Positions 6,488 to 38,002 of a DNA stretch of 44,745 nucleotides are shown here, in pieces; within the stretch, counting starts at the first letter, position 1, and every line of letters starts with the position of its first letter. The notes under the pieces are model-generated. The model did no database searches. It was not told the DNA's origin and was given only the letters and a program-made list of their open reading frames with translations. Origin of the DNA: a virus. The stretch is from IMG/VR virus record IMGVR_UViG_3300032331_004188, positions 1-44,745 of that record; one strand, written 5' to 3'. Both the position numbers and the translations under genes were made by a program.

Positions 6488-6859
6488 ATGGAACTTACAA
6501 AATTTGCACAGGCAGTAAAACAAGAGCTAGAGATCGAACTGTTGAAAGCAGGATCTAGCCTGCATGAGTTTGAGCAGGCTCTCCAGACCATCAATACCGG
6601 AGAGGGCGTTCTGAAAATTGCTGTAGATGGAAACAGGATTATCGACAATATGATCTCAGGAGGAATGAGCTCTGCAGGAAGTATTCCTGAACTAGCGTTC
6701 AAAGGTTCGCTTGCAGGAGGAGCTTTGGCTGGCCTTACTCTAGACGAAATGGACAAATCTGTAGACTCGTTGCATAAAGCTCTTGCTAAAGAGCGAGAAA
6801 AAATTAATCTGGTCAAGCGGGTAACAACCAATCTAAAGAGAGAACATGGACTTATTTAA
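6488..6859 (+). CDS. Small helical protein with glycine-zipper segment
   Basis: A 123-residue protein of unknown family. It has an amphipathic N-terminal helix, a short central glycine-zipper stretch (about 77-89, GSLAGGALAGLTL) and a charged C-terminal helix. It starts one base after the preceding stop and its last 14 bases overlap the next gene, a sign of translational coupling. It belongs with the other glycine-zipper proteins of this block. Confidence 0.7.
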   Translation: MELTKFAQAVKQELEIELLKAGSSLHEFEQALQTINTGEGVLKIAVDGNRIIDNMISGGMSSAGSIPELAFKGSLAGGALAGLTLDEMDKSVDSLHKALAKEREKINLVKRVTTNLKREHGLI

Positions 6860-7223
6860 TGACACTATAGAAGCAAAGGCTACAGAACATTTTGATTTTG
6901 GTGTGAGTTCGGCAGATTTGACCACTGCAAACAGAAAGAGAAACATCAAGAACGAAGTAGCCAACAAGTCGTTTGATCCTGAAACTGTTATAGACGCCTA
7001 TGAGCTAGCCAAAGGCATAAAAAAGAGACCTAAAGCTGATGATCTTACAGGATACACTTTTAAGAACATCATTCTAGATCCCGAGCAGCAGAAAGATCAG
7101 GACATGCTCAACGAGCTGATGAACAACAAAAAATACGTAATTGCGCACTGGAAAGACACCTGGACAGCTCAAGGAAGTTTTAGAGTATTTATAATTTACG
7201 GAACTAAAAAAGAAACCCAATAA
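6846..7223 (+). CDS. Unknown soluble protein
   Basis: A 125-residue, charged, apparently soluble protein with no family I recognise. The first half is helical (NRKRNIKNEVANKSF). The second half has beta character ending in FRVFIIYGTKKE. The start overlaps the end of the previous gene by 14 bases and has AGAGAG just upstream, so reinitiation from the preceding gene is likely. It lacks the glycine-zipper features of its neighbours. Confidence 0.7.
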   Translation: MDLFNDTIEAKATEHFDFGVSSADLTTANRKRNIKNEVANKSFDPETVIDAYELAKGIKKRPKADDLTGYTFKNIILDPEQQKDQDMLNELMNNKKYVIAHWKDTWTAQGSFRVFIIYGTKKETQ

Positions 7224-7227
7224 CTAT

Positions 7228-8334
7228 ATGGAGATAAATCAAAAAACCGCATCAACACCATTACCACTTTCTCCAGAAGAGGCACAGCTTGCTTCTAAGC
7301 TATTTGGTCGCAGTCTGTTTAGTGCACTTGCTCTTGCTAATGAACAGGAGTCTCGCAGAAACCTAGGTCCAGAGCAGCTAGGATTTGATGACGAAAAAAC
7401 TTTGAGAATTCCTATTCCTATGAATTTGCTTCCTAGTAAAACGGCAGCCTTTGGTCAGCCTGCTTACATAGGGCCAGATACTCCTCCAGAACCTGCTGAA
7501 GGCCAGGGTATTCTTGCTCATGTTAAAAGAAACTTGGGCAAGTACCTGGGCAGCTACGGAGGAGCAGCTCTCGGTGGTGCTCTGGGAGCTACAGGCAAGC
7601 ACGGAGGAGCATTAAAGAAAGTCTTAAAAACTCTGGCAGGAGGAACAGTCGGAGCAACCGCCGGAGCAGGGGCAGGAGCTCTGTATGATGAGCTTGAAAA
7701 AGATAAGCAAATAGCGTCGATGCAGAACTCCAGACTGAACAAACAGAAACTTCTGCAGAGCATGATACAGACAGGAGAGCTAGAAGATCTTTTGAATTCT
7801 GGTGACGTAAGCAAGTATGCTAGCGAAGATATGGCTGATTCTTACGAGCCAGGAATGCTGGCTAGAGCATTTAAAAATCAAAGCAATCCTATCAGCATGC
7901 TATTTGGAAGTCAGACAGGATTTAGAGACGCTAAGAAAGACTATTACCTGCAGCAGAAGAAAAGAATTCAGGATGAGCTGATGGCTGCTCAGCAGGACTA
8001 TATGGATGTGCTGTCTAAAATCAAAACAGGGTCTAGTCTTGAAACTCCTTGTGTGGACGCATTCTGCAACGGAATAGCCTATTCATCCTTGTTTCAAAAA
8101 ACAGCAGAAGATGTGAATATTGAGGAAGGAGCCGTAGGCAGAATGTTGGGAGATATGCTTGGAGGAATTAAAAAACCCTTCCAACCTGCAGTAGACGCCG
8201 CCACATCAGGACTTGTTAGCACAGGAGCCGGTTCAGCCTGGCTGACATTCTTGCTGCGCAAAAAGATGCGCGAAGAACCTGAGAAGTACATGGAACAAAA
8301 CATGCCCACAAGGGTTGAACTCGCACCCTACTAA
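7228..8334 (+). CDS. Glycine-zipper virion-like protein with several KTA motifs
   Basis: A 368-residue protein of unknown family. The N-terminus carries NQKTASTP (about residue 4), a second SKTAAF lies near residue 71 and a third QKTAED near residue 290. These are the clearest examples of a short Lys-Thr/Glu-Ala motif repeated across this gene block. Residues about 105-155 are Gly/Ala-rich (GGAALGGALGATG and following), suited to membrane insertion. The rest is helical and charged. It starts four bases after the previous stop in the TATG context. A role in the virion or in DNA ejection, possibly with proteolytic processing at the KTA sites, is inference. Confidence 0.75.
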   Translation: MEINQKTASTPLPLSPEEAQLASKLFGRSLFSALALANEQESRRNLGPEQLGFDDEKTLRIPIPMNLLPSKTAAFGQPAYIGPDTPPEPAEGQGILAHVKRNLGKYLGSYGGAALGGALGATGKHGGALKKVLKTLAGGTVGATAGAGAGALYDELEKDKQIASMQNSRLNKQKLLQSMIQTGELEDLLNSGDVSKYASEDMADSYEPGMLARAFKNQSNPISMLFGSQTGFRDAKKDYYLQQKKRIQDELMAAQQDYMDVLSKIKTGSSLETPCVDAFCNGIAYSSLFQKTAEDVNIEEGAVGRMLGDMLGGIKKPFQPAVDAATSGLVSTGAGSAWLTFLLRKKMREEPEKYMEQNMPTRVELAPY

Positions 8335-8338
8335 TCCT

Positions 8339-8995
8339 ATGAAAATTGATTGGACAGAACTTCAAAAAGGCTTTGAGCGGGAAAAGATAAAGACTGCCTC
8401 AGCACCAACTCCAGCAGTCGGGGCAGTTGGATCGGCTGTATCCAAAGTTCCTTTTTTAACTAAAATACTAGACAAAGTCAAAGGTTGGCTGCCGTCTGCA
8501 GGCAAAGCAGCCACAGGCGTGGCAGCCGCAACAACAGCAGGAATTGTAGGAAAGGGCGCATACGACGCAGGCAAGAATTTACTCGGAGGAGCACAGGACA
8601 CACTACTTGGGCTGACAAATCACTTGCCTTCGCTTTTAGCTGGCGCGCAAGGGCAGCAGTCTGTTCAGACACAAGGCCCTGGGTATGTATTGCCTCCGCA
8701 AAGGGGAGGCGTATCATCCTGGAAAAATCCTCTTTCAGTTTACGAGCCTACAAGACCTGTATTTAAGCGCGCCGGAATTATGGGAGACGTGACTAATATA
8801 GCTAAAAATCGTATAGCTAACAGTGTAATTAACGAAGTAACTAAAACAAATCCTCTTGGTGGAGATATATCAGAGCATGCTCCAGCACAACCTTCAGAGA
8901 AAGAAATTCAACTTGTTTCAGAATTTCCTGAGATCAAAGAGATGTTGAAAAACGAAGAGAATAAAGCTTATTTAGAAAGATTGCTTAAAGATTAG
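8339..8995 (+). CDS. Ala/Gly-rich virion-like protein
   Basis: A 218-residue protein of unknown family. An in-frame ATG at 8315 lies inside the preceding gene; I prefer the ATG at 8339, four bases after that gene's stop, which matches the spacing used throughout this block and gives the N-terminus MKIDWTELQ. An IKTASAP motif follows near residue 18, then a long Ala/Gly helical region (about 45-90, with GKAATGVAAATTAG), a Pro/Gly-rich middle and an acidic C-terminal helix. A hairpin overlaps the stop codon, so this is probably the last gene of the block that began at 3238. Confidence 0.75.
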   Translation: MKIDWTELQKGFEREKIKTASAPTPAVGAVGSAVSKVPFLTKILDKVKGWLPSAGKAATGVAAATTAGIVGKGAYDAGKNLLGGAQDTLLGLTNHLPSLLAGAQGQQSVQTQGPGYVLPPQRGGVSSWKNPLSVYEPTRPVFKRAGIMGDVTNIAKNRIANSVINEVTKTNPLGGDISEHAPAQPSEKEIQLVSEFPEIKEMLKNEENKAYLERLLKD

Positions 8996-9021
8996 GCATA
9001 ATTGCTTGCCTAAACATCTTT
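8987..9021 (+). terminator. Two-part hairpin at the end of the glycine-zipper block
   Basis: The sequence forms an outer stem AAAGAT/ATCTTT and an inner stem TAGGCA/TGCCTA around an 8-base loop, with three unpaired bases on the right side. The stop codon of the upstream gene lies in the left arm. No long T run follows, so it may be a weak terminator or an mRNA-stabilising hairpin. Confidence 0.45.
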
Positions 9022-9044
9022 GAGTAGCTATTTTTAAATAAATT

Positions 9045-9275
9045 ATGTCAGCGTCAAATAAACAGATATACATTCCTGCAATAGCAATTAAAGGATCGTT
9101 TATAGAAGAAATTGGCAGTTCTGAAGATCGCCTAATCTACCCTGGAGAGCAATTTAATATCACCTTGTCTGCAGAAGATTTTGCAAATTCCGAAGAGTAT
9201 CACACCGCCTGGATTACCATAACTAGAGCTGTAAAATCTAAACTTCTAAAAGATGCAACCTCAAGATCCTCCTAA
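9045..9275 (+). CDS. Small unknown protein upstream of RNA polymerase beta N-terminal gene
   Basis: A 76-residue protein with predicted beta-strand character (KQIYIPAIAIKG..., FNITLSAEDF..., AWITITRAV) and no family I recognise. It starts in the TATG context after an AT-rich leader and overlaps the next gene by 23 bases in a different frame, so the two are probably translated together. Confidence 0.6.
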   Translation: MSASNKQIYIPAIAIKGSFIEEIGSSEDRLIYPGEQFNITLSAEDFANSEEYHTAWITITRAVKSKLLKDATSRSS

Positions 9276-9918
9276 AAATACAAGATCGTTTTTTGATCCT
9301 AAAGGATTAAGAAAAATGATCTTTGATATTGCTGTAGATTCTTTTGGAAAGAAGCTCAACACAATTGAAACAGCAGACTTTAAACTGCAGGCTAGAGATC
9401 TTAAGATAGACCTTCCTAAGGTTACTCCCTCAATTCAGAAAAAAGCTATCCTAGAAAAGAAAGACTTGGTGGCTCCTCTAAAAGCCACTGTCGATCTGAT
9501 TCACAAAGCATCAGGCAAAGTTGTAGAATCCAAGTCCACAACAATTGCCCATATACCGTACGTAACAGGACACAATACCGTAATTTATAACGGATCAGAA
9601 TACGAAGGCGTAAATCAACAAAGGCTCTTGCCTGGCATTTATTCTCGCGTGAGACAAGACGGAATTCCAGAGTCTCACATCAATCCAGAAGCGCGCACAG
9701 GGCAGTCTTCTAGAATCATGTTTTTGCCTGACAAACAGCTATTTATCATGATGGTAAAAAATTCTCAGGTAAAACTTTACGGAGTTTTAAAAGATCTAGG
9801 CATCTCAGACGGAGCAATTAAAGAAGCTTGGGGAGAGCAGATATATAACGCTAACAGGCTGCAGTACAGGGGAGACGAGATCGACAAGCTGTACTCTATT
9901 CTTGTTGGAGGAGAATAG
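9253..9918 (+). CDS. RNA polymerase beta subunit, N-terminal fragment
   Basis: This 221-residue protein corresponds to roughly E. coli RpoB 20-220 (the protrusion). Residues 99-131 (AHIPYVTGHNTVIYNGSEY, then NQQRLLPGIY) align with the RpoB segment PLMTDNGTFVINGTER...SQLHRSPGVFF, and the following ARTGQSSRIMFLPDKQLFIMM aligns with ARIIPYRGSWLDFEF. The segment before it matches the RpoB stretch that enters this motif. The frame ends at a normal stop 2 bases before the next start, so it is a finished gene and not a broken end. It lies on the opposite strand from, and about 8 kb and 5 kb away from, the other two beta pieces. Function as part of a phage RNA polymerase is inferred from homology. 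Confidence 0.88.
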   Translation: MQPQDPPKNTRSFFDPKGLRKMIFDIAVDSFGKKLNTIETADFKLQARDLKIDLPKVTPSIQKKAILEKKDLVAPLKATVDLIHKASGKVVESKSTTIAHIPYVTGHNTVIYNGSEYEGVNQQRLLPGIYSRVRQDGIPESHINPEARTGQSSRIMFLPDKQLFIMMVKNSQVKLYGVLKDLGISDGAIKEAWGEQIYNANRLQYRGDEIDKLYSILVGGE

Positions 9919-11925: not shown

Positions 11926-13605
11926 ATGGCCAAAAGAATTGATATCAACTCACTACACCTAGGTAAATCTAGCGCTCAACAAAGTGCCTGGGATTTTGAA
12001 TACTATACAAAATACCAATCAACAAGCAGTTCAGAAATTCCTGAAATCTGCTTTTTGCCTACTGTAAACTCTTTCTCTTTTACAGCCCCTAAACTTGTAG
12101 AGTTGAATCCTTCGTGTACGTTTACATTTCCTGACGTATTTCCTGTTCCTCCTCCGCCTCCTGTAGTTGCGAATACGTGGCCTGCTTGTGAGTATCTTAC
12201 AGTAGTAAATCAGGTAAGTATGTGTGAAGGAGCGTACCTCAATCTGTCAGGAGGAGGAGCATCCGACAATGGAGATCTTCCTAATCCATGTCAGCTAGTT
12301 TTATCAGGTGTAATTCCTTGCCCTGAGCCTATCCCAGGACCATCAGGCTCCTCAGGGCCGCCTGGTACAGTAGGCCCATCAGGACCTCCAGGCCCATCAG
12401 GACCTCCAGGAATGAGTATTCCAGGCCCATCAGGACCTCCAGGACCAAGCGGAGGGACAGGCCCATCAGGACCTCCAGGAATTCCTGGACCGCAGGGCCC
12501 GATGGGACCAGCGGGCCCATCAGGCTCGCAGGGTCGGCCTGGAGCTGCGTCGACCGTAGCAGGCCCGCAGGGCGAAAGGGGAGCTCAAGGCCCGCAGGGC
12601 GAAAGGGGGGCTCAAGGCCCGCAGGGCGAAAGAGGGGAGCAGGGTCCGGCCGGAGCGGACGGAGGTGCCGGTTCTCAAGGCTCTCAAGGTCCTCAAGGCC
12701 CTCAAGGCGCAAGCGGCGCCAGCGGAGCATCAGGCGCAACTGGAGCATCAGGAAGACGCAGCAATGGAGGCGACTTCAGCTGCTCTGGAGGTACTGACTC
12801 TGAGGGTATACCAAAGGATACTACTTTGGAGCTGAGCTCTTTATCTTGCGATACAGTCACCGCCACAACCTGTTGCGTTTCAAATAATGGTTCGTATATA
12901 GACTTTTGTCCTGGCGATCTTGTGTTCTATGGACCAGCAGGAGCAGCTGACGGAAATACTCTATCTATGAATAGTGATGCTATTCATATTGATGGGTATT
13001 CAGGCAAGGAAATGTCCCTTACTAACGAGGAGCTAAATTTATCTAAAGGATTAGCTCAAGATTACGCCAATCTGACTGCAGAAAAATTCACAATGACGAC
13101 TGGTGGCGGGAATGAGCGTCCAAGATCAGTCGAAATTTCGTCTGACCGCGTCATAGTTACAGGAGAAGGAGGGAGTATGTATCTTAACGCAAATGACAAC
13201 ACATTTTCTATATCGGAGTCGCAGGGAGAGGAGAATAACACCACAATCCACATGTCAGGCGGCGGGGACGGGCAGCTAATCATAGGCAAAGGGCAGCAAA
13301 ACGGTTCAAGCAGAGTTGAAATTGAGGGTAATGGCTCATTTACCCTAGGGGAAGGTGATGGGCAGGTGCAAATGTGGAGCGATAATACCAACTCTACTAT
13401 AAGGCTTGGAAGTATCATGATAACAACTGAAGACACAACAGTCTACATAGGTACTGAAACCAATGCAGGCACTTTGAGTATAAATGATGGCTCAAGCAAT
13501 CCTGTTGTACTTTCCGGTTCTGAAATAGAATGGCGAGACCTGGAGGTTTGCATAGATGGAACAACAACAACAATTCAAGTTTTAGCCAAAAAACTCACAA
13601 CGTAA
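11926..13605 (+). CDS. Collagen-like tail fibre protein (Gly-Pro-rich type)
   Basis: A 559-residue protein. Residues 1-140 form a non-repetitive head with a Pro-rich spot (PVPPPPP). About 141-285 is a collagen-like region of Gly-X-Y triplets, first of the GPSGPPG type, then GPQGERGAQ, then GASGASGAT. The remaining 270 residues are beta-rich with regular short strands, typical of a trimeric fibre shaft or tip. At DNA level the collagen part contains near-identical 18-bp and 27-bp units and is clearly more GC-rich than its surroundings. It is probably a trimeric virion fibre. Downstream, seven bases away, is the cysteine-rich gene. Confidence 0.85.
12373..12477 (+). repeat. 18-bp repeats in collagen-like region
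   Basis: The unit GGCCCATCAGGACCTCCA occurs identically at 12373-12390, 12391-12408, 12424-12441 and 12460-12477, coding for GPSGPP. Identity at third positions suggests recent duplication or ongoing slippage in length. Confidence 0.9.
12562..12642 (+). repeat. Three tandem 27-bp units in collagen-like region
   Basis: Three consecutive 27-bp units start at 12562, 12589 and 12616, each beginning GGCCCGCAGGGCGAAAG and coding for GPQGERGAQ or GPQGERGEQ. The first two differ at one base; the third diverges at its end. Such units can expand or contract by recombination. Confidence 0.9.
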
Positions 13606-14322: not shown

Positions 14323-14865
14323 ATGAGCCTGTACCCTAAGCTGGACAAGATTGTTGTAGCAATGACAGTCGCTGACAGAAAAAATAAGAATAAACCTTTA
14401 GCCAAAAAATGGATTTCCAGAGGATTTAGAAGAATAACTAAACAGAATCTTATTAAATACTGGGAAAACAGACTGTCCTCAAAACCAGAAGATCTTGATT
14501 TATATAAGACCACCTTGACCATGTATGAAAGAACGCTTGGCTCGCCAGCTCGCGAAAAGGTTGATGCTACTGCAGGCTCAAATCAAGAAATTCAAGCTCC
14601 CGGTGTGTGGCAAATGATGAAGACCGCCGCAATAGCAGGCAAAAACTTTGTAAAGTCAGGAATGAAATTTGTGACTGAAGAACAGTTCGAGGCGCGTGAA
14701 GCTATTTGCAAAGGATGCGAATACTGGAATCCTAAAGGATACGGAAATACTGGGCAGTGTCTCAAATGCGGATGCGCAACCAAAGCAAAGTTGAGGCTTG
14801 CCTCAGAATCTTGCCCATTGCAAAAATGGGTAAAAATTGAAGCTAGTACTCAGGAATATCAATAA
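14323..14865 (+). CDS. Zinc-ribbon phage protein
   Basis: A 180-residue protein. The first 115 residues are basic and helical. The C-terminal 60 residues hold a zinc-ribbon pattern CxxC (C129, C132), then CxxCxC (C146, C149, C151), then C164 in SCPLQKW. The arrangement matches a small zinc-ribbon tail found on many phage proteins of unknown role. An MMKTAA motif lies near residue 98, of the same type as in the virion-like block. Its last 23 bases overlap the end of the RNA polymerase beta middle gene on the other strand. Confidence 0.75.
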   Translation: MSLYPKLDKIVVAMTVADRKNKNKPLAKKWISRGFRRITKQNLIKYWENRLSSKPEDLDLYKTTLTMYERTLGSPAREKVDATAGSNQEIQAPGVWQMMKTAAIAGKNFVKSGMKFVTEEQFEAREAICKGCEYWNPKGYGNTGQCLKCGCATKAKLRLASESCPLQKWVKIEASTQEYQ

Positions 14866-15535
14866 CAGAAGAAAGGAACTCTTGATGATCGATCCATACG
14901 GGCTTATTTGTAGCATTATCAATTACTTGACGATAAAGCTTTCCGTCAGTGCCTTTCCTAATGTTGTTAACGAAAAAATTTACTACCCCAATGGTAGTTG
15001 CCTCTACTGTCTGTATAGGGTCAAGTAGCCCAAACTGAGACTCGTTTACTTCTCTAGACGATTCTGGAATAGCCTCACTAGATCCGATCCCACCTTCTCC
15101 CATTTTTGTAACTTTGTGAGCCAGCATATACTGCTCCATAGGATTAACTCCCTCGATGTTCTGACTTAACGTATTTCCCACAAAAACCGATTTGACCTGA
15201 GGTGTAAAAAATCCTGCATGCAGCCATGAAAGATTTCTTTTTTGCCTTAATTTGTTTTTAGCTTTAAATTGCAACTTTCCTGCGTCATGTTCAATGTGCT
15301 CTTTAATATAATCCTCAGGACCTAAAAATTTAGAAAAAACAACATTGTCACGATCATCCGGAGCTTCCTGCCTACCAAACACTTTTAAAAGTTTTTTTGA
15401 AGAATCCAGCAAAATTTGAGGCGTTACAAAATTACTAGGACTTCCTAAAGTTCTACCCATAACAGAAGCATCTAACTTCATATTTTTAAAGTACTCTTTA
15501 AGTTTAGTTATTTTTTCTTGTTTGGTAGTGCTCAT
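14843..15535 (-). CDS. RNA polymerase beta subunit, middle fragment (fork / rifampicin-pocket region)
   Basis: This 230-residue protein matches about E. coli RpoB 440-610. Residues 123-151 (LSQNIEGVNPMEQYMLAHK, then GEGGIG) align with RpoB [19 protein letters not shown]...GPGGLT. Residues 168-184 (QFGLLDPIQTVEATTIG) align with HYGRVCPIETPEGPNIG. The N-terminal helices match the RpoB segment before the fork. The ATG at 15535 is in the TATG context and the stop is normal, so this is a complete gene. It supplies the part of beta that lies between the N-terminal piece at 9253-9918 and the C-terminal piece at 1-1458; the lobe (about 220-440) is not found here. Several rifampicin-contact positions differ (D516 to E, H526 to L, S531 to T). 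Confidence 0.88.
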   Translation of the reverse strand: MSTTKQEKITKLKEYFKNMKLDASVMGRTLGSPSNFVTPQILLDSSKKLLKVFGRQEAPDDRDNVVFSKFLGPEDYIKEHIEHDAGKLQFKAKNKLRQKRNLSWLHAGFFTPQVKSVFVGNTLSQNIEGVNPMEQYMLAHKVTKMGEGGIGSSEAIPESSREVNESQFGLLDPIQTVEATTIGVVNFFVNNIRKGTDGKLYRQVIDNATNKPVWIDHQEFLSSVIDIPEY

Positions 15536-15775: not shown

Positions 15776-16219
15776 ATGAATAGTACTGAAAGAAACAGGA
15801 TCGGTTGGGACGAGTATGGTATGCTGCTAGCGCACGCAGCAAGTCAAAGATCCCCAGATCCTTATGTAATTGTCGGGGCAGCAGGATTTAGAAAAGATCA
15901 CTCTACGGTATGCACTGGGTATAACGGAGCTCCTGCTGGTGTGGAAATCGACTGGAGCAACCGAGAGCTGCGTAGACCCTACGTTGTACATGCAGAGTAC
16001 AACTGCCTCAAATACGCAAAGCCCGGAGAAATACACTATCTCTATGTAACCATGCTTCCGTGCGAGTTTTGTTTAAAATTTGCCGCAGCCACAGGAGTCA
16101 AAGAAATTATTTATGATAGCCTTTATCATAGAGATGATTCGTCGCTAATCAAAGCGCAAGAATGCGGTATATTATTGAGGCAACACTCGCTGACTTCAAT
16201 TGGCGTAGTTGCAAAATAA
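15776..16219 (+). CDS. Deoxycytidylate (dCMP) deaminase
   Basis: A 147-residue zinc-dependent deaminase, close to the usual length of phage dCMP deaminases. The catalytic motif HAE (H72, E74) and the zinc ligands PCEFC (C96, C99) are intact, with TGYNGAPAG near residue 47 as in the family. It converts dCMP to dUMP and so feeds dTMP synthesis. It stands between a small acidic gene and the class II ribonucleotide reductase gene, so it belongs to a nucleotide-supply cluster. Confusion with other cytidine deaminases is unlikely given the loop sequence. Confidence 0.9.
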   Translation: MNSTERNRIGWDEYGMLLAHAASQRSPDPYVIVGAAGFRKDHSTVCTGYNGAPAGVEIDWSNRELRRPYVVHAEYNCLKYAKPGEIHYLYVTMLPCEFCLKFAAATGVKEIIYDSLYHRDDSSLIKAQECGILLRQHSLTSIGVVAK

Positions 16220-16290: not shown

Positions 16291-16324
16291 AGTGTTCTGG
16301 CAATTAACCTTATTAAAAAAATAT

Positions 16325-18175
16325 ATGAGTAAAGAATTTCTGTCTAAAATTGTACACTACCGCACATACGCTAAATACCTTTCTGATGAACAGAGAAGAG
16401 AGACCAAAGACGAAACCATCCAGAGAAATCTAGATATGCACGTTAAGAAGTTTCCAAAGCTTAAAGACGAGATCTCTAAGGCATACGAGCAGGTCTTTGC
16501 AGGCAGGGTGGTCCCAAGCATGCGTAGTTTTCAGTTTGCTGGAGAGGCTATCGAGCGCAGACACAACCGCATGTACAACTGCAGCTTCCTGAACATTACG
16601 TCTGTAAAAGACTTTGCAGACTTGTTTTATATGAGCATGAGCGGCGCAGGTGTAGGCTTCAGCGTCAAGAAACGTCACGTATCACTGCTGGACGCTATTC
16701 CTGAAGGCTTTGTTGTTGCTCCCTACATTATCGAAGACTCTGCCGAAGGCTGGTGCGATTCTCTGGTAGCCCTGTTTACTAACCCTGATCTGCAGTTCGA
16801 CTATACTCAAATCAGGCCCATGGGTAGCCCATTAAGCACAGGAGGCACCTCTAGTGGTCCCAAGGCGCTAATCAAAATGCATGCAAATGTTCGAGCTATA
16901 CTCAGGAAAGCAGAAGGGCGTAAGCTTACCCCATTTGAATGCCATAGAATCTGCTGTCTGGTGGCTGACTGTGTTGTGGTGGGAGGTGTACGTAGAGGTG
17001 CGCTGATTAGTCTTTTTGATGCGGATGAGCAAGAGCTTGTTCATTGCAAGGCAGGAAACTGGTGGGAGAAATATCCAGAACTCGCTAGAGCAAACAACAG
17101 TGCTGTCTTGAGAAAGGACGACCCTGAGTTTGACAGCAAGGCTGCTTATATCATACAGGCATGCTTCGACGGAGGGCAAGCTGAGCCGGGGTTATCGCTT
17201 ACAGGAGATAGTGATGACCTCGGCTTTAACCCATGTCATGAGATTGCGCTAAGATCCCGAGGCGTCTGTAATCTGACAGAAGTTAACGCAGCAAAGTGCT
17301 TTTCGAGAGAAGAGTGGCTTCAGGCTGTAGAAGCTGCTACAATTATAGGAACTCTACAAGCATCATACACTGATTTCAAATATGTTCACCCAGGATGGAA
17401 AGAAAACGCAGAAGATGAATCGCTTCTCGGTGTATCAATCACTGGTCAGGCTGAAAATCAACAAATTCTCACTAATGAGAACCTGCGTGATGGAGCCAAG
17501 CTCGCCGTCGAAGCCAACAAAATCTGGGCAGCAAAACTCGGCATTAAGCCTGCAAGAAGGATTACTACCACCAAGCCTAGCGGAACAAGTAGCAGCTGGC
17601 TCGGAACTACAGCAGGAGTTCATGCAGGACATGAGATCCGATATATTAGGCGAGTTCGCATGGATAAGTTCAGCGCTCTTGCTAAAGCATTGGCCAAACG
17701 ATTCCCTAGCTTTGTTGTTGATGACCCTTTCAACAGCAGCGACATGATCATGCAGGTGCCAATTAAACTATATGATACCACACTACTCAGATCTCAGGAA
17801 ACTGCCGTACAATGTCTTGAGCGCGTTAAAAAACTGTACGATAATTGGATTGTGCCTGGCCACATCGAAGGCACTAACACTCATAACATCAGCCTTACGA
17901 TCAACTACCACGAGCATGAAAAAGAGGCGATAAAGAAGTGGATGATTGAGAACAAAGACTCTTATTATGGGATTAGTCTTATTCCTTATGACGGTGGAGA
18001 TTATAAGTACTTGCCTTATAGCCAGCCCCCGCATCCGGAAGTGTTTGAAATCCTTGATAAAGCGTTCACCCAAATAGCTGACAACTTCAGCTTTGAAGAT
18101 ATCAAAGAAAGAAAAGATAATACTGATTTCAAAGGCGAAATTGCCTGCGCCGGAGGAGCCTGCACTATTGACTAG
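16325..18175 (+). CDS. nrdJ: Adenosylcobalamin-dependent class II ribonucleotide reductase (monomeric, RTPR-like)
   Basis: The 616-residue protein reduces ribonucleotides to deoxyribonucleotides with a B12 coenzyme. Motifs of the Lactobacillus leichmannii RTPR type are present: MYNCSF (C86, equivalent to C119), NPCHE (C304 and E306, equivalent to C408 and E410), C315 (equivalent to C419) with the exact spacing, KPSGTSSSWLG, and a C-terminal redox pair CAGGAC (C608, C613). RTPR is about 740 residues, so this is a short version. A GTG at 16292 is in frame, but the ATG at 16325 after an A-rich leader and in the TATG context is preferred. A terminator follows the stop. The cofactor-making adenosyltransferase lies at 18886-19434. 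Confidence 0.93.
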   Translation: MSKEFLSKIVHYRTYAKYLSDEQRRETKDETIQRNLDMHVKKFPKLKDEISKAYEQVFAGRVVPSMRSFQFAGEAIERRHNRMYNCSFLNITSVKDFADLFYMSMSGAGVGFSVKKRHVSLLDAIPEGFVVAPYIIEDSAEGWCDSLVALFTNPDLQFDYTQIRPMGSPLSTGGTSSGPKALIKMHANVRAILRKAEGRKLTPFECHRICCLVADCVVVGGVRRGALISLFDADEQELVHCKAGNWWEKYPELARANNSAVLRKDDPEFDSKAAYIIQACFDGGQAEPGLSLTGDSDDLGFNPCHEIALRSRGVCNLTEVNAAKCFSREEWLQAVEAATIIGTLQASYTDFKYVHPGWKENAEDESLLGVSITGQAENQQILTNENLRDGAKLAVEANKIWAAKLGIKPARRITTTKPSGTSSSWLGTTAGVHAGHEIRYIRRVRMDKFSALAKALAKRFPSFVVDDPFNSSDMIMQVPIKLYDTTLLRSQETAVQCLERVKKLYDNWIVPGHIEGTNTHNISLTINYHEHEKEAIKKWMIENKDSYYGISLIPYDGGDYKYLPYSQPPHPEVFEILDKAFTQIADNFSFEDIKERKDNTDFKGEIACAGGACTID

Positions 18176-18191
18176 AGGCTCTGACAGCTAA

Positions 18192-18227
18192 AAAAAGCCT
18201 GGATTCCTTTTAGGGTCCAGGCTTTTT
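18192..18227 (+). terminator. Bidirectional intrinsic terminator
   Basis: AAAAAGCCTGGA and TCCAGGCTTTTT form a perfect 12-base-pair stem around a 12-base loop. Runs of A and T on the two sides let it act in both directions, ending the reductase transcript and the leftward unit that stops at 18239. Confidence 0.9.
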
Positions 18228-18238
18228 CTGTTTCAGGG

Positions 18239-18463
18239 TTAGCGAACTCTCTTCAACATGGCGAGCTGCTGTTGTAATTTCTCGTTGGTTGAACTGTGTC
18301 TTTGCTGTCCCCTGCTGTTCCAAATCCCGCAGTCATAACCGATCAATCTCCATGGAGATTCGGTTATATTGACAACCCACTCCTCAGGCTCCTCTCTTGG
18401 AGGATTTGTGTTTTTAGGAAGAGCTATAGTTGGCCCATCGGGCAAACGCTTATCATCTGTCAT
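18239..18463 (-). CDS. Unknown small protein
   Basis: A 74-residue protein of unknown family, Pro-rich at the N-terminus with EEPEEWVVNITESPWRLIGYD in the middle and a basic, Gln-rich end. A longer start at 18505 is possible, but the ATG at 18463 overlaps the stop of the upstream gene as ATGA, the sign of translational coupling, and is preferred. Confidence 0.55.
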   Translation of the reverse strand: MTDDKRLPDGPTIALPKNTNPPREEPEEWVVNITESPWRLIGYDCGIWNSRGQQRHSSTNEKLQQQLAMLKRVR

Positions 18464-18792
18464 AAATACCCTACTTTGATTAGTTTTTTGTTTGCATCGT
18501 CCCATTTACACAAAGCAATAGCTCCAATGACGGGGCTTTTTTGCAGCTTGTTTAAAATAGGTTCGTAGTGTTTATCAAACACCACGAAAAGCTCTTCGAG
18601 TTGGTCTGCCTGCCTGTAGCTGATTTTTGCGGCTTTCAGCATATCCTCAATACCCATGTCTGTGATGTCTGCATTATTGTCCGACTGGGTGCCGCACAAA
18701 ACATCCATGAACAAACCTGTGTCGAAGACATCGTGGGCAATCCCATGGTTTTTACTAAACACTAGTGCATTTTTTTCATTACATATTTTCAT
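18460..18792 (-). CDS. Unknown small protein
   Basis: A 110-residue, mixed helix/strand, slightly acidic protein with no family I recognise. It is the first gene of a two-gene leftward unit (next gene overlaps by ATGA) that lies between the reductase and the adenosyltransferase genes. A TATAAT element sits 40 bases upstream. Confidence 0.6.
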   Translation of the reverse strand: MKICNEKNALVFSKNHGIAHDVFDTGLFMDVLCGTQSDNNADITDMGIEDMLKAAKISYRQADQLEELFVVFDKHYEPILNKLQKSPVIGAIALCKWDDANKKLIKVGYL

Positions 18793-18831
18793 TTTTGCAT
18801 TGGTTAAATAGAAGGCTACTAACCTTCATAG

Positions 18832-18847
18832 TATTATACCATTAAAT
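18832..18847 (-). promoter_or_regulatory. Promoter motif ATTTAATGGTATAATA (copy 1)
   Basis: On the minus strand this 16-mer contains a perfect TATAAT (18833-18838) and recurs identically at 24654-24669, also upstream of a leftward small-gene unit. No good -35 hexamer is visible at either copy. Confidence 0.5.
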
Positions 18848-18885
18848 CGCTTGCTTTTTTATCCCGCCTCATATCACATATAGAT

Positions 18886-19434
18886 ATGAGCATTGCTACA
18901 AAAACAGGAGACAAAGGATACACCGGACTATTATTTGGTGAACGCGAAAAGAAATCTGCAAAAATATTTGAAGCTGTTGGAAATGTGGATGAGCTTAACG
19001 CTAGTATAGGTATGCTAAAAGCCACTATTCTTGATAAACTCTCAGGCAAACCGTTTGTCGCTTTTATAGAAGAAGTTCAGCACAGACTTACACTATACAT
19101 GGGCGAACTTGTCGCAGAACCTCAGAATAGAGAAAAATATGTGCAGATGTATGATTCAATCAAAGAAGCTGATCTAGAGCAGCTTGACATGACTGTGAAG
19201 ACTCTTGAAAAAGACCCTAATACAAAGCAGTCAGGTTGGGTTCTGTATGGTAACTCTACGGTAGGTTCGACAGCAGATTTTGCCTCAAAGGTATGCAGAA
19301 GAGCAGAAAGAAGCGTAGTCTATCTGGATCCTGAGCATAATCTTCGCCCTATCCTGCTGCAATATATCAACAGATTAAGTGACGTGCTGCATTTACTCGG
19401 AAGATATTTTGACGGTTTGCAAAAAATATCTTGA
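18886..19434 (+). CDS. PduO-type cob(I)alamin adenosyltransferase
   Basis: A 182-residue protein that transfers the adenosyl group of ATP to cob(I)alamin, making adenosylcobalamin. The family signatures are all present: TKTGDKGYTG (residues 5-14), GNVDELNASIG (32-42), RRAER (138-142) and the C-terminal INRLSDVLHLLGRYF (161-175). Length is normal for the PduO/MMAB family. The ATG at 18886 is in the TATG context. Its position next to an adenosylcobalamin-dependent reductase gives it an obvious partner; this pairing is inference, but family membership is secure. Confidence 0.93.
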   Translation: MSIATKTGDKGYTGLLFGEREKKSAKIFEAVGNVDELNASIGMLKATILDKLSGKPFVAFIEEVQHRLTLYMGELVAEPQNREKYVQMYDSIKEADLEQLDMTVKTLEKDPNTKQSGWVLYGNSTVGSTADFASKVCRRAERSVVYLDPEHNLRPILLQYINRLSDVLHLLGRYFDGLQKIS

Positions 19435-19470: not shown

Positions 19471-19782
19471 ATGAGCACTCCAGAATCAACCGTATTAGAT
19501 AAACTAAAAGAAGTAGGTCTGTCTATTGATGAAGTAAAAGACTGGTTGAACCAGACTAGCGAAGATATCTCAGACAATAACAACGAACAGAGCAACGAGT
19601 GTAATATTCTGTTTCTTCCTGCCAGTAATACGGAAAATACTAAGGTATATTTCTTAGATGAAGAGCAGAACGGATATTTGATTAATGGTGTTGTTCGTGC
19701 TGGGCTGGAATATGATCCTGATCTAGGCTTCCCGATTTTAAATCTTCAGATTGCAAATCCGATTATTCCTGATTTTAATTAG
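19471..19782 (+). CDS. Unknown acidic protein
   Basis: A 103-residue acidic protein. An N-terminal helix (STVLDKLKEVGLSIDEVKDWL) is followed by an Asn/Asp/Glu-rich linker and a beta-rich half (NTKVYFLDEEQNGYLINGVV). No family recognised. The gene is followed by an intrinsic terminator. Confidence 0.65.
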   Translation: MSTPESTVLDKLKEVGLSIDEVKDWLNQTSEDISDNNNEQSNECNILFLPASNTENTKVYFLDEEQNGYLINGVVRAGLEYDPDLGFPILNLQIANPIIPDFN

Positions 19783-19890: not shown

Positions 19891-20772
19891 ATGCTATTTA
19901 TACTACTTGTCGCTTTTAGCGCTATGTTTGTGGCCGGATGCGCGGCCTTCTTCAGTATCAAGGGGCTTATTGTCCTGTTTTCTGGAAGCAGTCTCGCAAT
20001 CGGAATTATGGCCAGTAGCCTTGAGATAGGCAAACTGGTTGCCGCTAGTTTCCTGCATACCTATTGGAAGCAAATCAGCTTTCTTTTGAGAACATACCTC
20101 TGCGTGGCCGTGCTTACCTTGATGGGTATTACCAGCCTAGGGATCTTCGGATTTCTTACAGGTGCTTATCAGGTACATTCTGCCACAGTAAATACTTTTG
20201 AGAGCAAGATTGAGGCTCTCACTACAGAAAAAGTGTCAATCGAAACAGGCGTAGCTGAACATAGTGAACGCATCAAAAGTCTCACCACGCTGAGACAGGA
20301 CCAGGAACAGCGAGTCAAGGACGCCGGCAACTATAAAGCTCCTAGAGAGCAGGCCTACAAGGCCATCGAAGAAGCCAACCTAGAGATTAAACAAAAAGAA
20401 GAATCTTTGACTAAAGAAAGAGAAAGAATTATTGAAATTGAGAAAGAAATATCTGAACTAAAAATAGGTATGAACACCACTACTGATGTAGGATCATTTA
20501 AATTCATCGCAGCCGCCACAGGCTCCACTGTAGACGAAGCTGTAAGGTATTTCATATTTGCTTTGATCTTTGTATTCGACCCTCTCGCAGTAACACTTGT
20601 TCTAGCCTGGAATAAACTATTGGAAGCTAGAAGAGAAAAGCGAGCTCAGGAAGAAGCTGCCTATATTGCTAGTCTTAAACCCGTCGAATTCGATGGGATT
20701 AACGCCTCGCAAGATATCCCGCAAGTTTTCGGGGTATCAAACGATGACAAGACTAGCTTAAAAAAAAAGTAG
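19891..20772 (+). CDS. Membrane protein with central coiled coil (0-frame product)
   Basis: A 293-residue protein. Hydrophobic segments at about 1-23, 25-45 and 65-92 are followed by a long charged coiled coil (about 103-190) and a fourth hydrophobic segment (about 222-242, containing FIFALIFVFDPLAVTLVL), then a soluble tail. Similar four-segment proteins with an FDPLAV motif occur in marine phages; their role is unknown. The 0-frame ends at TAG immediately after an A AAA AAG heptamer, and the -1 frame stays open for 86 more residues, so a longer C-terminal tail is likely made by frameshifting. Confidence 0.8.
   Translation: MLFILLVAFSAMFVAGCAAFFSIKGLIVLFSGSSLAIGIMASSLEIGKLVAASFLHTYWKQISFLLRTYLCVAVLTLMGITSLGIFGFLTGAYQVHSATVNTFESKIEALTTEKVSIETGVAEHSERIKSLTTLRQDQEQRVKDAGNYKAPREQAYKAIEEANLEIKQKEESLTKERERIIEIEKEISELKIGMNTTTDVGSFKFIAAATGSTVDEAVRYFIFALIFVFDPLAVTLVLAWNKLLEARREKRAQEEAAYIASLKPVEFDGINASQDIPQVFGVSNDDKTSLKKK
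20763..20769 (+). other. Candidate -1 programmed ribosomal frameshift site
   Basis: The heptamer A AAA AAG lies in the correct phase (codons TTA AAA AAA AAG TAG) and is identical to the slippery site of E. coli dnaX. The 0-frame stop follows at once. Ten bases downstream ATTCTA (20779-20784) can pair with TAGAAT (20800-20805). A one-base error in the nine-A run is the alternative. Confidence 0.6.
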
Positions 20773-21107: not shown

Positions 21108-21827
21108 ATGAAATACCTTATAGCTTTTTTATTGCTCCAAATCACCGTGCCCACCACAACAGCCAACGCTAATTCTGTGCTAGAGCAACGCAATATTGCC
21201 GTTTATGAGCAAGAGCCTATTGCGGCGAGGGATTGTGCTCTGGCTATAAAGAAATTATTAAAAACTAGATATTCGAATGTTTTTATAATTTCTCACGATG
21301 AATGCACTAAAGAAAAGCTAGCAGATCTGGACTGTATTGTTTTCCCTGGAGGAGAAAAAGACGTAGATAACTTTGACGTCTTGATAAAAGACAAGGCGAA
21401 GCTTATTAGAAGCTATGTAGCCGATGGAGGAAGATATCTGGGAATCTGTATGGGAGCGTACATAGCAGGCAGGATGTACTTCAATATTCTTGGAGGCACA
21501 TCAGCAGAGCAATATATAGCAGACCCTACGTCCGAAATATCCGCAGAAAAAGAAACAACCGCTGAAGTGAGCATATCAGGAAAGGTATACAATACATATT
21601 TTTATGACGGCCCTGTGTTTGAAAAATATCTTAGACAATCAAATATTCTAGCCACATACAAAAACGGTAAAGCAGCCAGCGTAATAAAAGCCTACAAACG
21701 CGGCAAGGTATTATGTGTCGGCCCGCATCTAGAATCAGAAAAAAACTGGTACGCTGACACAACTCACTGGCATCACGGAGAACAGCACAAACTGCTGCTG
21801 TCTATGGTGGGCAGACTTCTAGAATAA
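21108..21827 (+). CDS. Exported glutamine-amidotransferase-like protein (BPL_N type)
   Basis: A 239-residue protein with an N-terminal signal peptide (residues 1 to about 22, basic start, Leu-rich core, cut after ANA). The mature part resembles the class I amidotransferase-like fold seen in biotin-protein-ligase N-terminal (BPL_N) domains: VFPGGEKDV (78-86), the nucleophile elbow YLGICMGAY (110-118, C114) and a late GPHLESEKNW strand-loop near residue 205. Proteins of this kind are found in bacterial envelopes; the substrate is unknown. It is rare to see an exported version in a phage. It ends one base before the convergent gene at 21828. Confidence 0.75.
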   Translation: MKYLIAFLLLQITVPTTTANANSVLEQRNIAVYEQEPIAARDCALAIKKLLKTRYSNVFIISHDECTKEKLADLDCIVFPGGEKDVDNFDVLIKDKAKLIRSYVADGGRYLGICMGAYIAGRMYFNILGGTSAEQYIADPTSEISAEKETTAEVSISGKVYNTYFYDGPVFEKYLRQSNILATYKNGKAASVIKAYKRGKVLCVGPHLESEKNWYADTTHWHHGEQHKLLLSMVGRLLE

Positions 21828-35336: not shown

Positions 35337-36416
35337 TTAAGCCTGGCGAATTTTAGCTACAGTTTCAGCAGAAAGACTCTTGTATAAAAGGCCTTTTTCA
35401 AGGAATTGCTGAGGTACCCCTTGCTTGATCAGGGCAATGCCGTTGTATGTAGCGCGAGGAGAAATAATAGCTTTTGCTCCTAACTCAGCCACAGCATCTC
35501 TAACTTTCTGTACTGTAGCCAACCAAGATTCAACTGTGGGAACCTTGCCGGCTCCTTCGTTCCACTTAGGAGAACTTACGCCAGGGAACCCTGCAACGTG
35601 AGCTTCGAGGCCGTCATCGTACGGCATCTCAACAAAGAAGAAACGGTCCAATGTGGCGGCGTCTATTTGCGTACGTCCGACGTAACTAATGGAAGAGCCT
35701 AAACCAAAAGTATTAGCGCAAGATACGACCACAAAGTTTTTGTGCTTCTTAACCACTTTATCAGGAAACAATGTTTCGTCTCCAGATAATGAACTGTTGA
35801 GGACAGCCAATACGTTAGCATTCCCATTATCAACTTCATCTAAACAGAAAATACCACCATTCTCATAGATCTCGCGGAAGCTAGTGGATCTATAAACGCC
35901 GTGCGCGTCAAGATAACCCAAGAAATCTGTTTTGGTAGTCTGGCTGCAGACACTCAAGGCAGCGTATGAAAGCTTTAATTCTGCTGCTGCGTCTGCGGCG
36001 ACAGTAGATTTACCACTGCCAGCAGGACCAACTAACCACGTATGACACCTGGCAGCCATTGCCTTCTTAAGCAAAGGTAAAAGATAATGATGGCGCTTTT
36101 TGTTTGATGCAGGAATACCGACGCTTACCTTACTAGAGGAATCTGTTTTTGAGGGAACTTCCTTCTCTACTTCTTTAATAAAAGGATCTTCCTTTTTTGC
36201 CTGCTCGATTTTTTCCTGTAATATCTTTTCTTCTTTAATTTTTAACAAAGGAGCAATATATGTTTCGTCAGCTTCCGCTAAAGCCTGTCTGAGTGCAATA
36301 ATTTCAGGTGTAAGCGCTCCCACATAAGCACTGTGATGAGGCGTTGTTTTTTCCTGACGAGTTTTAACTATTAAAGCGTCAATTTCTTCTATGGATAAGT
36401 CATTTAGGTTGTTCAT
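35337..36416 (-). CDS. CobS/MoxR-like AAA+ ATPase
   Basis: A 359-residue AAA+ ATPase. Residues 1-105 form a charged helical extension; Walker A GPAGSGKST is at 130-138, Walker B CLDEVD at 191-196 and sensor 1 VVSCANTFG near 228, followed by LDRFFFVEM. The CobS name comes from a cobaltochelatase subunit, but phage members usually pair with other partners; no CobN or CobT homologue is visible here. The ATG at 36416 follows a TATACT element. Confidence 0.85.
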   Translation of the reverse strand: MNNLNDLSIEEIDALIVKTRQEKTTPHHSAYVGALTPEIIALRQALAEADETYIAPLLKIKEEKILQEKIEQAKKEDPFIKEVEKEVPSKTDSSSKVSVGIPASNKKRHHYLLPLLKKAMAARCHTWLVGPAGSGKSTVAADAAAELKLSYAALSVCSQTTKTDFLGYLDAHGVYRSTSFREIYENGGIFCLDEVDNGNANVLAVLNSSLSGDETLFPDKVVKKHKNFVVVSCANTFGLGSSISYVGRTQIDAATLDRFFFVEMPYDDGLEAHVAGFPGVSSPKWNEGAGKVPTVESWLATVQKVRDAVAELGAKAIISPRATYNGIALIKQGVPQQFLEKGLLYKSLSAETVAKIRQA

Positions 36417-36461: not shown

Positions 36462-37994
36462 TTAGCCTGCCAAACTATTGAATAGCTCATCTCCAAAAGA
36501 AGAAAAATATTTTAAAATATACTCAGAGCCTGAGGTTGAAGTTTTGTCGGCTTTTTTTACAGCGTTGGCCATAATATGTTCTGTAGCTGTAACCAGGTCT
36601 ATTGCTCCAGGATATTCGAAATATATTCCTTCTAATAATGGATGTTTGTGGTCAGTGTAGATATTGTCTCTAAAAGTTAAAACCCTGTTGTTCACATACA
36701 AACTTTCAAGAATAACATAGGGACAAGGATCTTCTTTCGACGTGAGTAAAAAGTAGTCCATCAAACTATAGTATTTATAAGGTAAATTTACGTTTTTAAC
36801 ATGATAAAAATTATCAGAAGCGCAGTCTACGTCATGGTCGCCGCCTACCCATAAAAAATTGTACTGGTTTAAATTCTCAGCTAGTTCAATAAATAGCTTG
36901 TAGTTTTTTCTATCAGATAAGTTTCCACACATCCCGATAGTTATTTTAGACCTATCAATTTCTCCTGCATGATTACTTACACTGGCAGGCTTACAAAACT
37001 CCACGTCTATTAAATCTAATATTTCTCTAGATATTATTGGTGGTTGCACTTTCGGAGGAACTTTATACTGCTTAGATATAGGCACAGAAACCACAAAAGT
37101 TGGTGGAGTAGTACATACATAGTGGTCCTCAATTTCATGACTATGTATGATCAATTTAGACTTGTCTATATACTTTACAACTCTAGCCATCGCAGAAGTC
37201 ATTGAATTAAAATATATTTTTCTAGCCTTGGTAGCCATACATATATGATAAAGCAATGTTGGATCTTTTTTATAGTACATTACATCCGAAGCGCTGAGCT
37301 TGTATTTCTCCTCAAGCATAGGGTTATTGTCAGCTTCTAGCATTTTTACTTTGAACCCTTTTAATTTAAGTTGCTCAAACAATAAGTACAAGTAGTGAGT
37401 GGCCCCATATATAGAGTTATCGTGACTTACCAGCAGTATATAGTCTTCAAGTACAGGTGTTGTAGATATGATATCTAATACTTCTTTAGACTTTATTTGA
37501 CGTATGTCTTTTAAATAATCTTCGTAATACGCAGAGCTATCTAACTTGTTGTAGTGACAAAAGAAATTCCTATCGAACAAGCGGTCACAGTAGACTCGTT
37601 TTTCATATTGTCCATGTTGAAAATAATGCCTTTTTAGCCAGCCGTCAGCCTGATCCTTAATATCTATATTTAGTTGACGATATACCTCTACATCAAAATC
37701 CGTAGGCAAATCTACATAATAAACTCTTTTTTCATTTTTACCGTGCAATACATAATGAGCCTCCAGCTGTAGATTAGTCATACCCTGCAAGTCAGGATTA
37801 TACTCTACATAAGCCTCATGAAAAAAATCAGCAGGCAACAATTGTTTAATAGCGTAAGTTCTACTTTCTTTTCTACCTACAACAATATAATGCACGCGAC
37901 ACTCCATGTCGTTATATGTATGTATGTCTGCGTTTAACTTCCTATATGTGGAAGCGACAAAATCTTTAGGTAAGGGTAAGTAAGAATTATTCAT
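36462..37994 (-). CDS. Glycosyltransferase with three N-terminal repeats
   Basis: A 510-residue protein. Residues about 8-138 hold three copies of a 43-residue repeat of the form LPxDFxxxxYxxLNxDI...HYxxxGxxExRxY, a module found next to glycosyltransferase domains. The rest (about 180-500) is GT-B-like: DNSIYGATHYLYLLFEQL as N-terminal acceptor side, then ITIGMCGNLSDRKNYKLFIEL (cited in part; about 350-370) and DYFLLTSKEDPCPYVILESL (cited in part; about 410-430) of the donor half. Probably a fibre- or glycan-modifying enzyme. Confidence 0.8.
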   Translation of the reverse strand: MNNSYLPLPKDFVASTYRKLNADIHTYNDMECRVHYIVVGRKESRTYAIKQLLPADFFHEAYVEYNPDLQGMTNLQLEAHYVLHGKNEKRVYYVDLPTDFDVEVYRQLNIDIKDQADGWLKRHYFQHGQYEKRVYCDRLFDRNFFCHYNKLDSSAYYEDYLKDIRQIKSKEVLDIISTTPVLEDYILLVSHDNSIYGATHYLYLLFEQLKLKGFKVKMLEADNNPMLEEKYKLSASDVMYYKKDPTLLYHICMATKARKIYFNSMTSAMARVVKYIDKSKLIIHSHEIEDHYVCTTPPTFVVSVPISKQYKVPPKVQPPIISREILDLIDVEFCKPASVSNHAGEIDRSKITIGMCGNLSDRKNYKLFIELAENLNQYNFLWVGGDHDVDCASDNFYHVKNVNLPYKYYSLMDYFLLTSKEDPCPYVILESLYVNNRVLTFRDNIYTDHKHPLLEGIYFEYPGAIDLVTATEHIMANAVKKADKTSTSGSEYILKYFSSFGDELFNSLAG

Positions 37995-38002
37995 AGTATT
38001 TT

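Follow-up and report, generated by a model that had tools for sequence, protein, structure and literature searches.

A class II ribonucleotide reductase gene followed by a variant PduO-type adenosyltransferase gene in a large freshwater phage, and the recurrence of this pair in other phages

We analysed a 44,745-nt stretch of virus DNA (44.7 kb; IMG/VR record IMGVR_UViG_3300032331_004188, positions 1-44,745; hereafter the window), in which nrdJ, encoding a class II ribonucleotide reductase (RNR) that depends on adenosylcobalamin (AdoCbl), is followed on the same strand by pduO, encoding a PduO-type corrinoid adenosyltransferase (ATR). The pair is real, is more widespread than a preliminary description of the sequence had it, and is not unprecedented; on sequence evidence a function for it is plausible. 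Comparison of the loci supports a link between nrdJ and pduO that is functional in evolutionary terms, because the pair turns up in several phage lineages, always in the same order and with class II reductases only. This recurrence, together with an active-site change specific to the window's clade, is the strongest new content of the analysis. Recurrence, order and class specificity also lead us to favour, with a probability of roughly 0.6, the reading that the phage ATR makes AdoCbl for its own RTPR-type reductase, in which we infer that the ATR is active, that AdoCbl passes to this RNR and that infection benefits. The further proposal of the preliminary description, that coenzyme supply limits the production of deoxynucleoside triphosphates (dNTPs), goes beyond what a sequence can show.

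The nrdJ gene (16325-18175, plus strand, 616 aa) starts at ATG 16325 and stops at 18173-18175; an in-frame GTG lies further upstream at 16292, but the ATG is preferred because relatives begin with the same N-terminus, MSKEFLSK. The best library match of the product is phrog_367 ('ribonucleotide reductase', 391 bits), and the best NCBIfam match is the RTPR model TIGR02505, which gives the phage protein, a shorter form, 213 bits where its cut-off is 340 (NrdJ_Z: 27 bits). The only PDB sequence match is the RTPR of Lactobacillus leichmannii (1L1L), to whose C119, C408, E410, C419, C731 and C736, which we take to be the catalytic and redox residues of that enzyme, the phage residues C86, C304, E306, C315, C608 and C613 align. 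All six positions are thereby placed, as the preliminary description had claimed for five cysteines and a glutamate, and the C-terminal cysteine pair (C608, C613) is present in CAGGAC, compared with CEGGAC in 1L1L. No class I small subunit (PF00268) was detected in the window or in relatives of 204, 184 and 168 kb, records that may be incomplete. By its residues NrdJ is an RTPR-type (monomeric) class II reductase, predicted to reduce ribonucleoside triphosphates in an AdoCbl-dependent manner. The same catalytic residues and the dependence on B12 characterize the monomeric class II RNRs of L. leichmannii (1L1L), Thermus phage P74-26, the cobaviruses and marine RTPR viruses (PMC6459318, PMC6775973, PMC10547690).

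The preliminary description put the two genes about 700 bases apart, and pduO (18886-19434, plus strand, 182 aa) indeed begins after a gap of 710 bp. In the Pfam scan its product matched PF01923 only (128 bits, cut-off 24), with no match to CobA- or EutT-type families; the NCBIfam model TIGR00636 gave 101 bits (cut-off 108). An AlphaFold monomer model (pLDDT 88.5) forms a five-helix bundle and aligns to the Bacillus cereus PduO structure 3ke5 over 171 residues with a Z-score of 22.0. This fold (Z about 21-22), the ATP motif and the catalytic Arg, Glu and Ser are common to PduO-type ATRs, including Lactobacillus reuteri PduO, human MMAB and B. cereus 3ke5. Family and fold thus agree with the earlier assignment of this neighbour to the ATR family, and sequence and model together identify the product as a PduO-fold cobalamin adenosyltransferase with predicted enzymatic activity. 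For pduO, dN/dS was estimated at 0.06-0.11 from four pairs (dS was saturated in two), and 50 columns of the PduO alignment are invariant in the clade; pduO is an accessory gene that evolves faster than nrdJ and is clearly under purifying selection.

The active site departs from the canonical one at a few positions. The window ATR keeps the TKTGDxGxT motif (T5-T13), D35, R138, R139, E141, R142, N162, R163, S165 and D166, and has intact counterparts of human R190, R191, E193, R194 and S217. In the human enzyme, R186, R190, E193, R194 and likewise S217 coordinate AdoCbl and ATP (PMC9262797). The equivalent of R186 (L. reuteri R128), R134 by window numbering, is replaced by Ser in the window (S134), by Ser or Ala in all 13 clade sequences and by Ser in the viral loci L047 and L048, whereas Arg occupies this position in all 141 other homologues (80/80 bacterial and 61/61 viral). 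Next to S/A134 the clade has an invariant lysine (K135), and P121 is changed to tyrosine (Y121), so that YG stands for the PGG of the L. reuteri, human and B. cereus enzymes. At the position of the phenylalanine under the cobalt (L. reuteri F112, human F170) the window carries W118; this position varies within the family, since Trp also occurs in 62 of the 80 closest bacterial homologues. We regard the W118/D131/Y121/S134-K135 enzyme as a variant because position 134 is a single active-site residue and does not define the family model. The 'complete' adenosyltransferase of the preliminary description therefore stands for the fold and most catalytic residues but not for the active-site Arg: a check of essential residues by alignment found the R186 equivalent lost throughout the clade and those of R190, R191, E193, R194 and S217 kept, so that, as aligned, the ATR is complete apart from one clade-wide substitution.

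Within the clade, 15 further contigs carry pduO downstream of nrdJ (L002-L007, L009-L012, L016, L017, L037, L044 and L046), among which L002 is nearly identical to the window and L003-L005 are near copies of one another. Outside L002, identity to the window is 81-96% for NrdJ and 46-56% for PduO, and the pair has been kept despite rearrangement of the interval. Two clade members, L008 and L015, have nrdJ without pduO; other genes occupy the site, where no ATR, remnant or substitute was found. Since in the NrdJ tree L008 is nested beside L006, which has pduO, a loss of the gene is indicated.

The preliminary description suggested a search of viral sequences for adjacent nrdJ and pduO genes, and this search recovered the pair in several lineages. 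A scan with the clade PduO alignment found relatives of PduO at 303 viral loci; 80 were retained, and 74 newly extracted loci were examined. An RNR gene lies on the same stretch (within 10 kb) in 23 of the 74, and in every one of these 23 loci nrdJ precedes pduO, with both genes on the same strand and within about 4 kb; nine are re-extracted or further loci of the window's clade and 14 belong to other phages. In the remaining 51 loci no RNR gene was found within 10 kb. The partner is either an RTPR or a dimeric NrdJ_Z: L047 has an RTPR (6488-9793) with an intein inserted at the catalytic NP|C motif, L048 a dimeric NrdJ_Z (450 bits, above the cut-off), L049 an RTPR, L050-L062, a marine/estuarine group with phage polymerase, primase, helicase and endolysin genes, an RTPR, and L063/L064 an RTPR (366 bits) with a terminase gene on the record. 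On further records an RTPR gene lies tens of kb from pduO (e.g., G039, G040, G045, G048 and G053), and in G037 an NrdJ_Z gene is far off. All RNRs found in ATR-bearing phage records are of class II, and no class I small subunit was detected in the 43 records tested. In the marine group, contigs whose nrdJ is at least 81% identical to that of L052 have pduO just downstream in 17 of 18 cases with enough sequence, and relatives at 76-80% have it in none of 56 (47 of them with at least 1.2 kb downstream); this pattern therefore points to gain or loss of pduO inside one phage group. As a side observation, the linked W-type ATR of L049 (9980-10516) reads CREAEV in place of CRRAER and is possibly an eroded enzyme.

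A tblastn search of annotated phages with the ATRs of the window, L052, L064, L079 and L092 returned only apparent host contigs. We consider this absence an artefact of sensitivity, because a structure search led to a divergent ATR in the cultured Nodularia phage vB_NspS-kac65v161. In the record of this phage (MK605243) an 'intein-containing RnR' (115938-119387) precedes a 'cobalamin adenosyltransferase' (120449-121144), nine Nodularia phage records carry an ATR annotation, and the pair is thus already on record as annotation (KU230356, MK605242-6). These phages (vB_NspS-kac65v151/161/162, kac68v161/162 and vB_NpeS-2AV2; Ravarandavirus) have an RTPR (phrog_367, 626 bits) and an ATR gene 1.06 kb downstream on the same strand; they are unrelated cyanobacterial siphoviruses, with an intein in the RNR and a very divergent ATR (44 bits to PF01923). 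The window shows the same type of pairing, a class II RNR gene followed within a few kb by a same-strand ATR gene (710 bp vs. 1061 bp). A linked adenosyltransferase, called unusual in the preliminary description, is hence rare but has a precedent. The Nodularia ATR has lost the VDEL-Asp and most of CRRAER and, for this reason, may not be catalytic. The RTPRs of L047 and MK605243 are two phage reductases that contain inteins and adjoin ATR genes.

A literature search, whose reach did not extend to papers on the Nodularia isolates, found no paper on the nrdJ-ATR pair in phages. Papers on phage class II RNRs assume that the host supplies the cofactor and describe no phage-encoded adenosyltransferase (PMC6459318, PMC6775973, PMC10547690), and a gene list from wastewater viruses includes a 'cobA' adenosyltransferase, a phage-borne ATR annotation for which no RNR link is made in the passage concerned (PMC11183165). 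One candidate from the databases was rejected: the pduO hit of 'Acinetobacter phage MD-2021a' is bacterial chromosome, with btuB-yvqK among trp and baeRS genes. The phage-labelled records CAKLQH020000002.1 and CAKLQF020000003.1 are likewise bacterial chromosome around the pduO hit, and several short 'Listeria/Enterococcus phage' contigs with pduO hits resemble bacterial DNA by appearance.

In class II reductases AdoCbl is a radical source that is re-formed, and its decay to cob(II)alamin inactivates the enzyme; ATRs take up cob(II)alamin in the base-off state, make it easier to reduce and then transfer the adenosyl group from ATP. In the reading we favour, the phage RTPR would turn ribonucleoside triphosphates into dNTPs with AdoCbl as cofactor, while host reductants would bring cob(II)alamin to cob(I)alamin, from which the phage ATR and ATP would form AdoCbl. 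The ATR could in this way raise the proportion of AdoCbl among host corrinoids, keep the phage reductase loaded and repair cofactor that has decayed to cob(II)alamin. The product might reach the phage RNR free or be handed over, in the way that the human ATR delivers AdoCbl straight to its mutase (PMC8633584). A bolder version, which we hold only tentatively and at a little short of even odds, is that at least four separate ATR lineages joined an ATR to a class II RNR, always with the RNR first, which would make AdoCbl supply a recurring bottleneck in the synthesis of phage DNA, and that the window-clade ATR is a phage-specific variant whose corrinoid/ATP pocket has been rebuilt (W118, Y121, S134-K135) and which is specialized in loading the phage reductase.

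Several observations weigh against AdoCbl production for the phage's own reductase. The Arg at position 134 is, in the alignment, replaced by Ser or Ala across the whole clade, with K135 invariant. In the window nrdJ and pduO are probably on separate transcripts and do not form one operon, because a terminator-like hairpin with a T-run lies directly 3' of nrdJ (18192-18227, plus strand; folding of 18165-18235 gave a minimum free energy of -24.9 kcal/mol, z -2.8) and two open reading frames (ORFs) on the opposite strand lie between the genes (18239-18505 and 18460-18792). The pduO gene is dispensable, since two clade members lack it, and most GenBank phages with such reductases appear to have no ATR. 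Finally, the seemingly eroded Nodularia homologue suggests that linkage is no guarantee of catalysis.

The last point, together with the clade-wide invariant changes at active-site positions, is what one would expect of an ATR that chiefly binds AdoCbl, as an escort or a cofactor store serving the phage RNR, and is not a fast catalyst: a linked but catalytically eroded homologue would fit a binding role, and the altered pocket (W118, Y121, S134, K135) would then reflect hand-over or retention of AdoCbl. The direct transfer in the human system is a model for this, and R190 and E193 mutants of the human ATR separate catalysis from chaperoning (PMC8633584). However, R138 (human R190), E141, R142 and the ATP motif are conserved in the window, and the linked ATRs of L052 and L064 are canonical at the active site. 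As we also know of no transfer from an ATR to an RNR, we consider an escort unlikely.

An equally unlikely explanation is that the ATR has nothing to do with the phage RNR and is either cargo that sustains host B12 enzymes during infection or a recent chance capture in a region of nucleotide metabolism. The accessory status of pduO, its place in a variable interval and the 51 viral loci without a nearby RNR are in line with this, yet some of these unlinked cases have an RTPR further off on the same record, purifying selection acts on pduO, and an order and strand fixed in 23/23 loci, with class II partners only and in separate lineages, speak against it.

The origin of the ATR bears on whether phages could have inherited the pair whole from bacteria in which nrdJ and pduO stay side by side. 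Of the 80 bacterial homologues closest to the window ATR, most belong to Verrucomicrobiota (Chthoniobacterales and relatives), the nearest at 38-43% identity; these W-type PduO proteins have W118 and D131 in common with the window ATR but keep R134 and P121. On the ATR tree the W/F state changes once, the free tree is no better than one in which all W-type sequences, apart from L049 and L063 with their long branches, form a clade, and the phage ATR clade is distinct from the bacterial sequences (support 99/83 with L047/L048). A single origin of the window-clade and marine-group ATRs is 43.6 log-likelihood units worse and is not formally rejected (approximately unbiased test, AU p 0.059), so that the tree alone does not prove independent origins, and this leaves some room for a common bacterial unit. 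Such an inheritance is nevertheless very improbable, because no RNR gene occurs within 3 kb of pduO in any of the 80 bacterial loci, the marine ATR is confined to a subclade of a larger nrdJ-bearing group, and partners differ within one viral ATR clade (RTPR vs. NrdJ_Z). A host-derived pairing, which the preliminary description had named as a result that would speak against its proposal, was thus not found. The ancestry of the ATR, which is the basis for any statement on the host, makes a verrucomicrobial host plausible; a Chthoniobacter-like host would not wholly lack the pathway, since both of the Chthoniobacter genomes that were checked encode an NrdJ_Z as well as an ATR.

The source of the window is a large freshwater phage of about 200 kb and of the multisubunit-RNA-polymerase type, in agreement with the earlier assignment to a phage. 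The window holds a fragment of RNA polymerase beta, whose relatives in Salmonella phage Arash and Vibrio phage D69 match it at 34-37%, along with helicase and tail-fibre matches. A 204 kb relative (G004; NrdJ 96%) encodes a terminase, a head maturation protease, RNA polymerase beta in several pieces, a sigma factor, DNA polymerase A, RecA and a handful of tRNAs; because of these hallmark genes we assign the DNA to a large tailed phage and not to a host. An assembly chimera or host contamination, which might be suspected because the window and several relatives are metagenomic fragments and many GenBank 'phage' pduO hits look like host contigs, is hardly credible given the same arrangement on about 16 clade contigs, including records of 167-204 kb, and given that the 204 kb record has genes for a terminase, a head protease and subunits of a phage RNA polymerase.

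If AdoCbl production for the phage reductase is the correct reading, a recurrent, order-conserved RNR-ATR pair would mean that some phages take over the last coenzyme step, contrary to the assumption of supply by the host. AdoCbl limitation in infection would become directly testable because cultured Nodularia phages carry a version of the pair. The pair is also relevant to the influence of phages on the demand for B12 in lakes and along coasts, and the window clade offers a natural ATR variant without an otherwise invariant active-site Arg.

The genes around the pair define a variable slot between nrdJ and a conserved gene for a 293-aa membrane/coiled-coil protein (19891-20772, plus strand), which has 65-90% identity in clade loci and forms the right border of the interval. 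Just upstream of nrdJ, in the same place in clade loci, lies a dCMP deaminase gene (15776-16219, plus strand; PF00383, 57 bits; phrog_174). Of the two minus-strand ORFs inside the slot, that at 18460-18792 encodes 110 aa, with homologues in L006 and L008 (29-31%) and no Pfam, PHROG or NCBIfam match. The next gene 3' of pduO in the closer relatives is usually the one found here at 19471-19782 (plus strand), for a 103-aa protein with no assigned function. In L009 the gap between the end of nrdJ and the start of pduO is no more than 5 bp. A glutamine-amidotransferase-like gene stands directly 5' of pduO in L010-L012, L042 and L046 (L010:7837-8508, L011:6105-6773, L046:9320-9988); in the window such a gene (PF09825 BPL_N, 63 bits) is located 1.7 kb after pduO (21108-21824, plus strand).

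Elsewhere in the window, RNA polymerase beta-like fragments occur on the minus strand at 3-1458 and 14843-15535, about 13 kb apart (PF00562; phrog_24349), and the 230-aa piece is 79-89% conserved in the clade. A CobS-like AAA ATPase (35337-36416, minus strand; 'porphyrin biosynthesis' phrog_249) was considered as a member of the B12 pathway and rejected, as it scored 35 bits where the CobS family has its cut-off at 559; it probably does not act in B12 metabolism. ARAGORN predicted a tmRNA gene with an unusually long tag peptide in the 204 kb relative (L306:11813-12211). The protein encoded at 11926-13605 (plus strand) contains a collagen-like stretch with a weak match to collagen-like adhesins, and the 204 kb relative has three collagen-repeat proteins. 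Glycosyltransferase and polysaccharide pyruvyl transferase genes (PF04230, 65 bits) at 36462-39133 (minus strand) may form a surface-glycan module.

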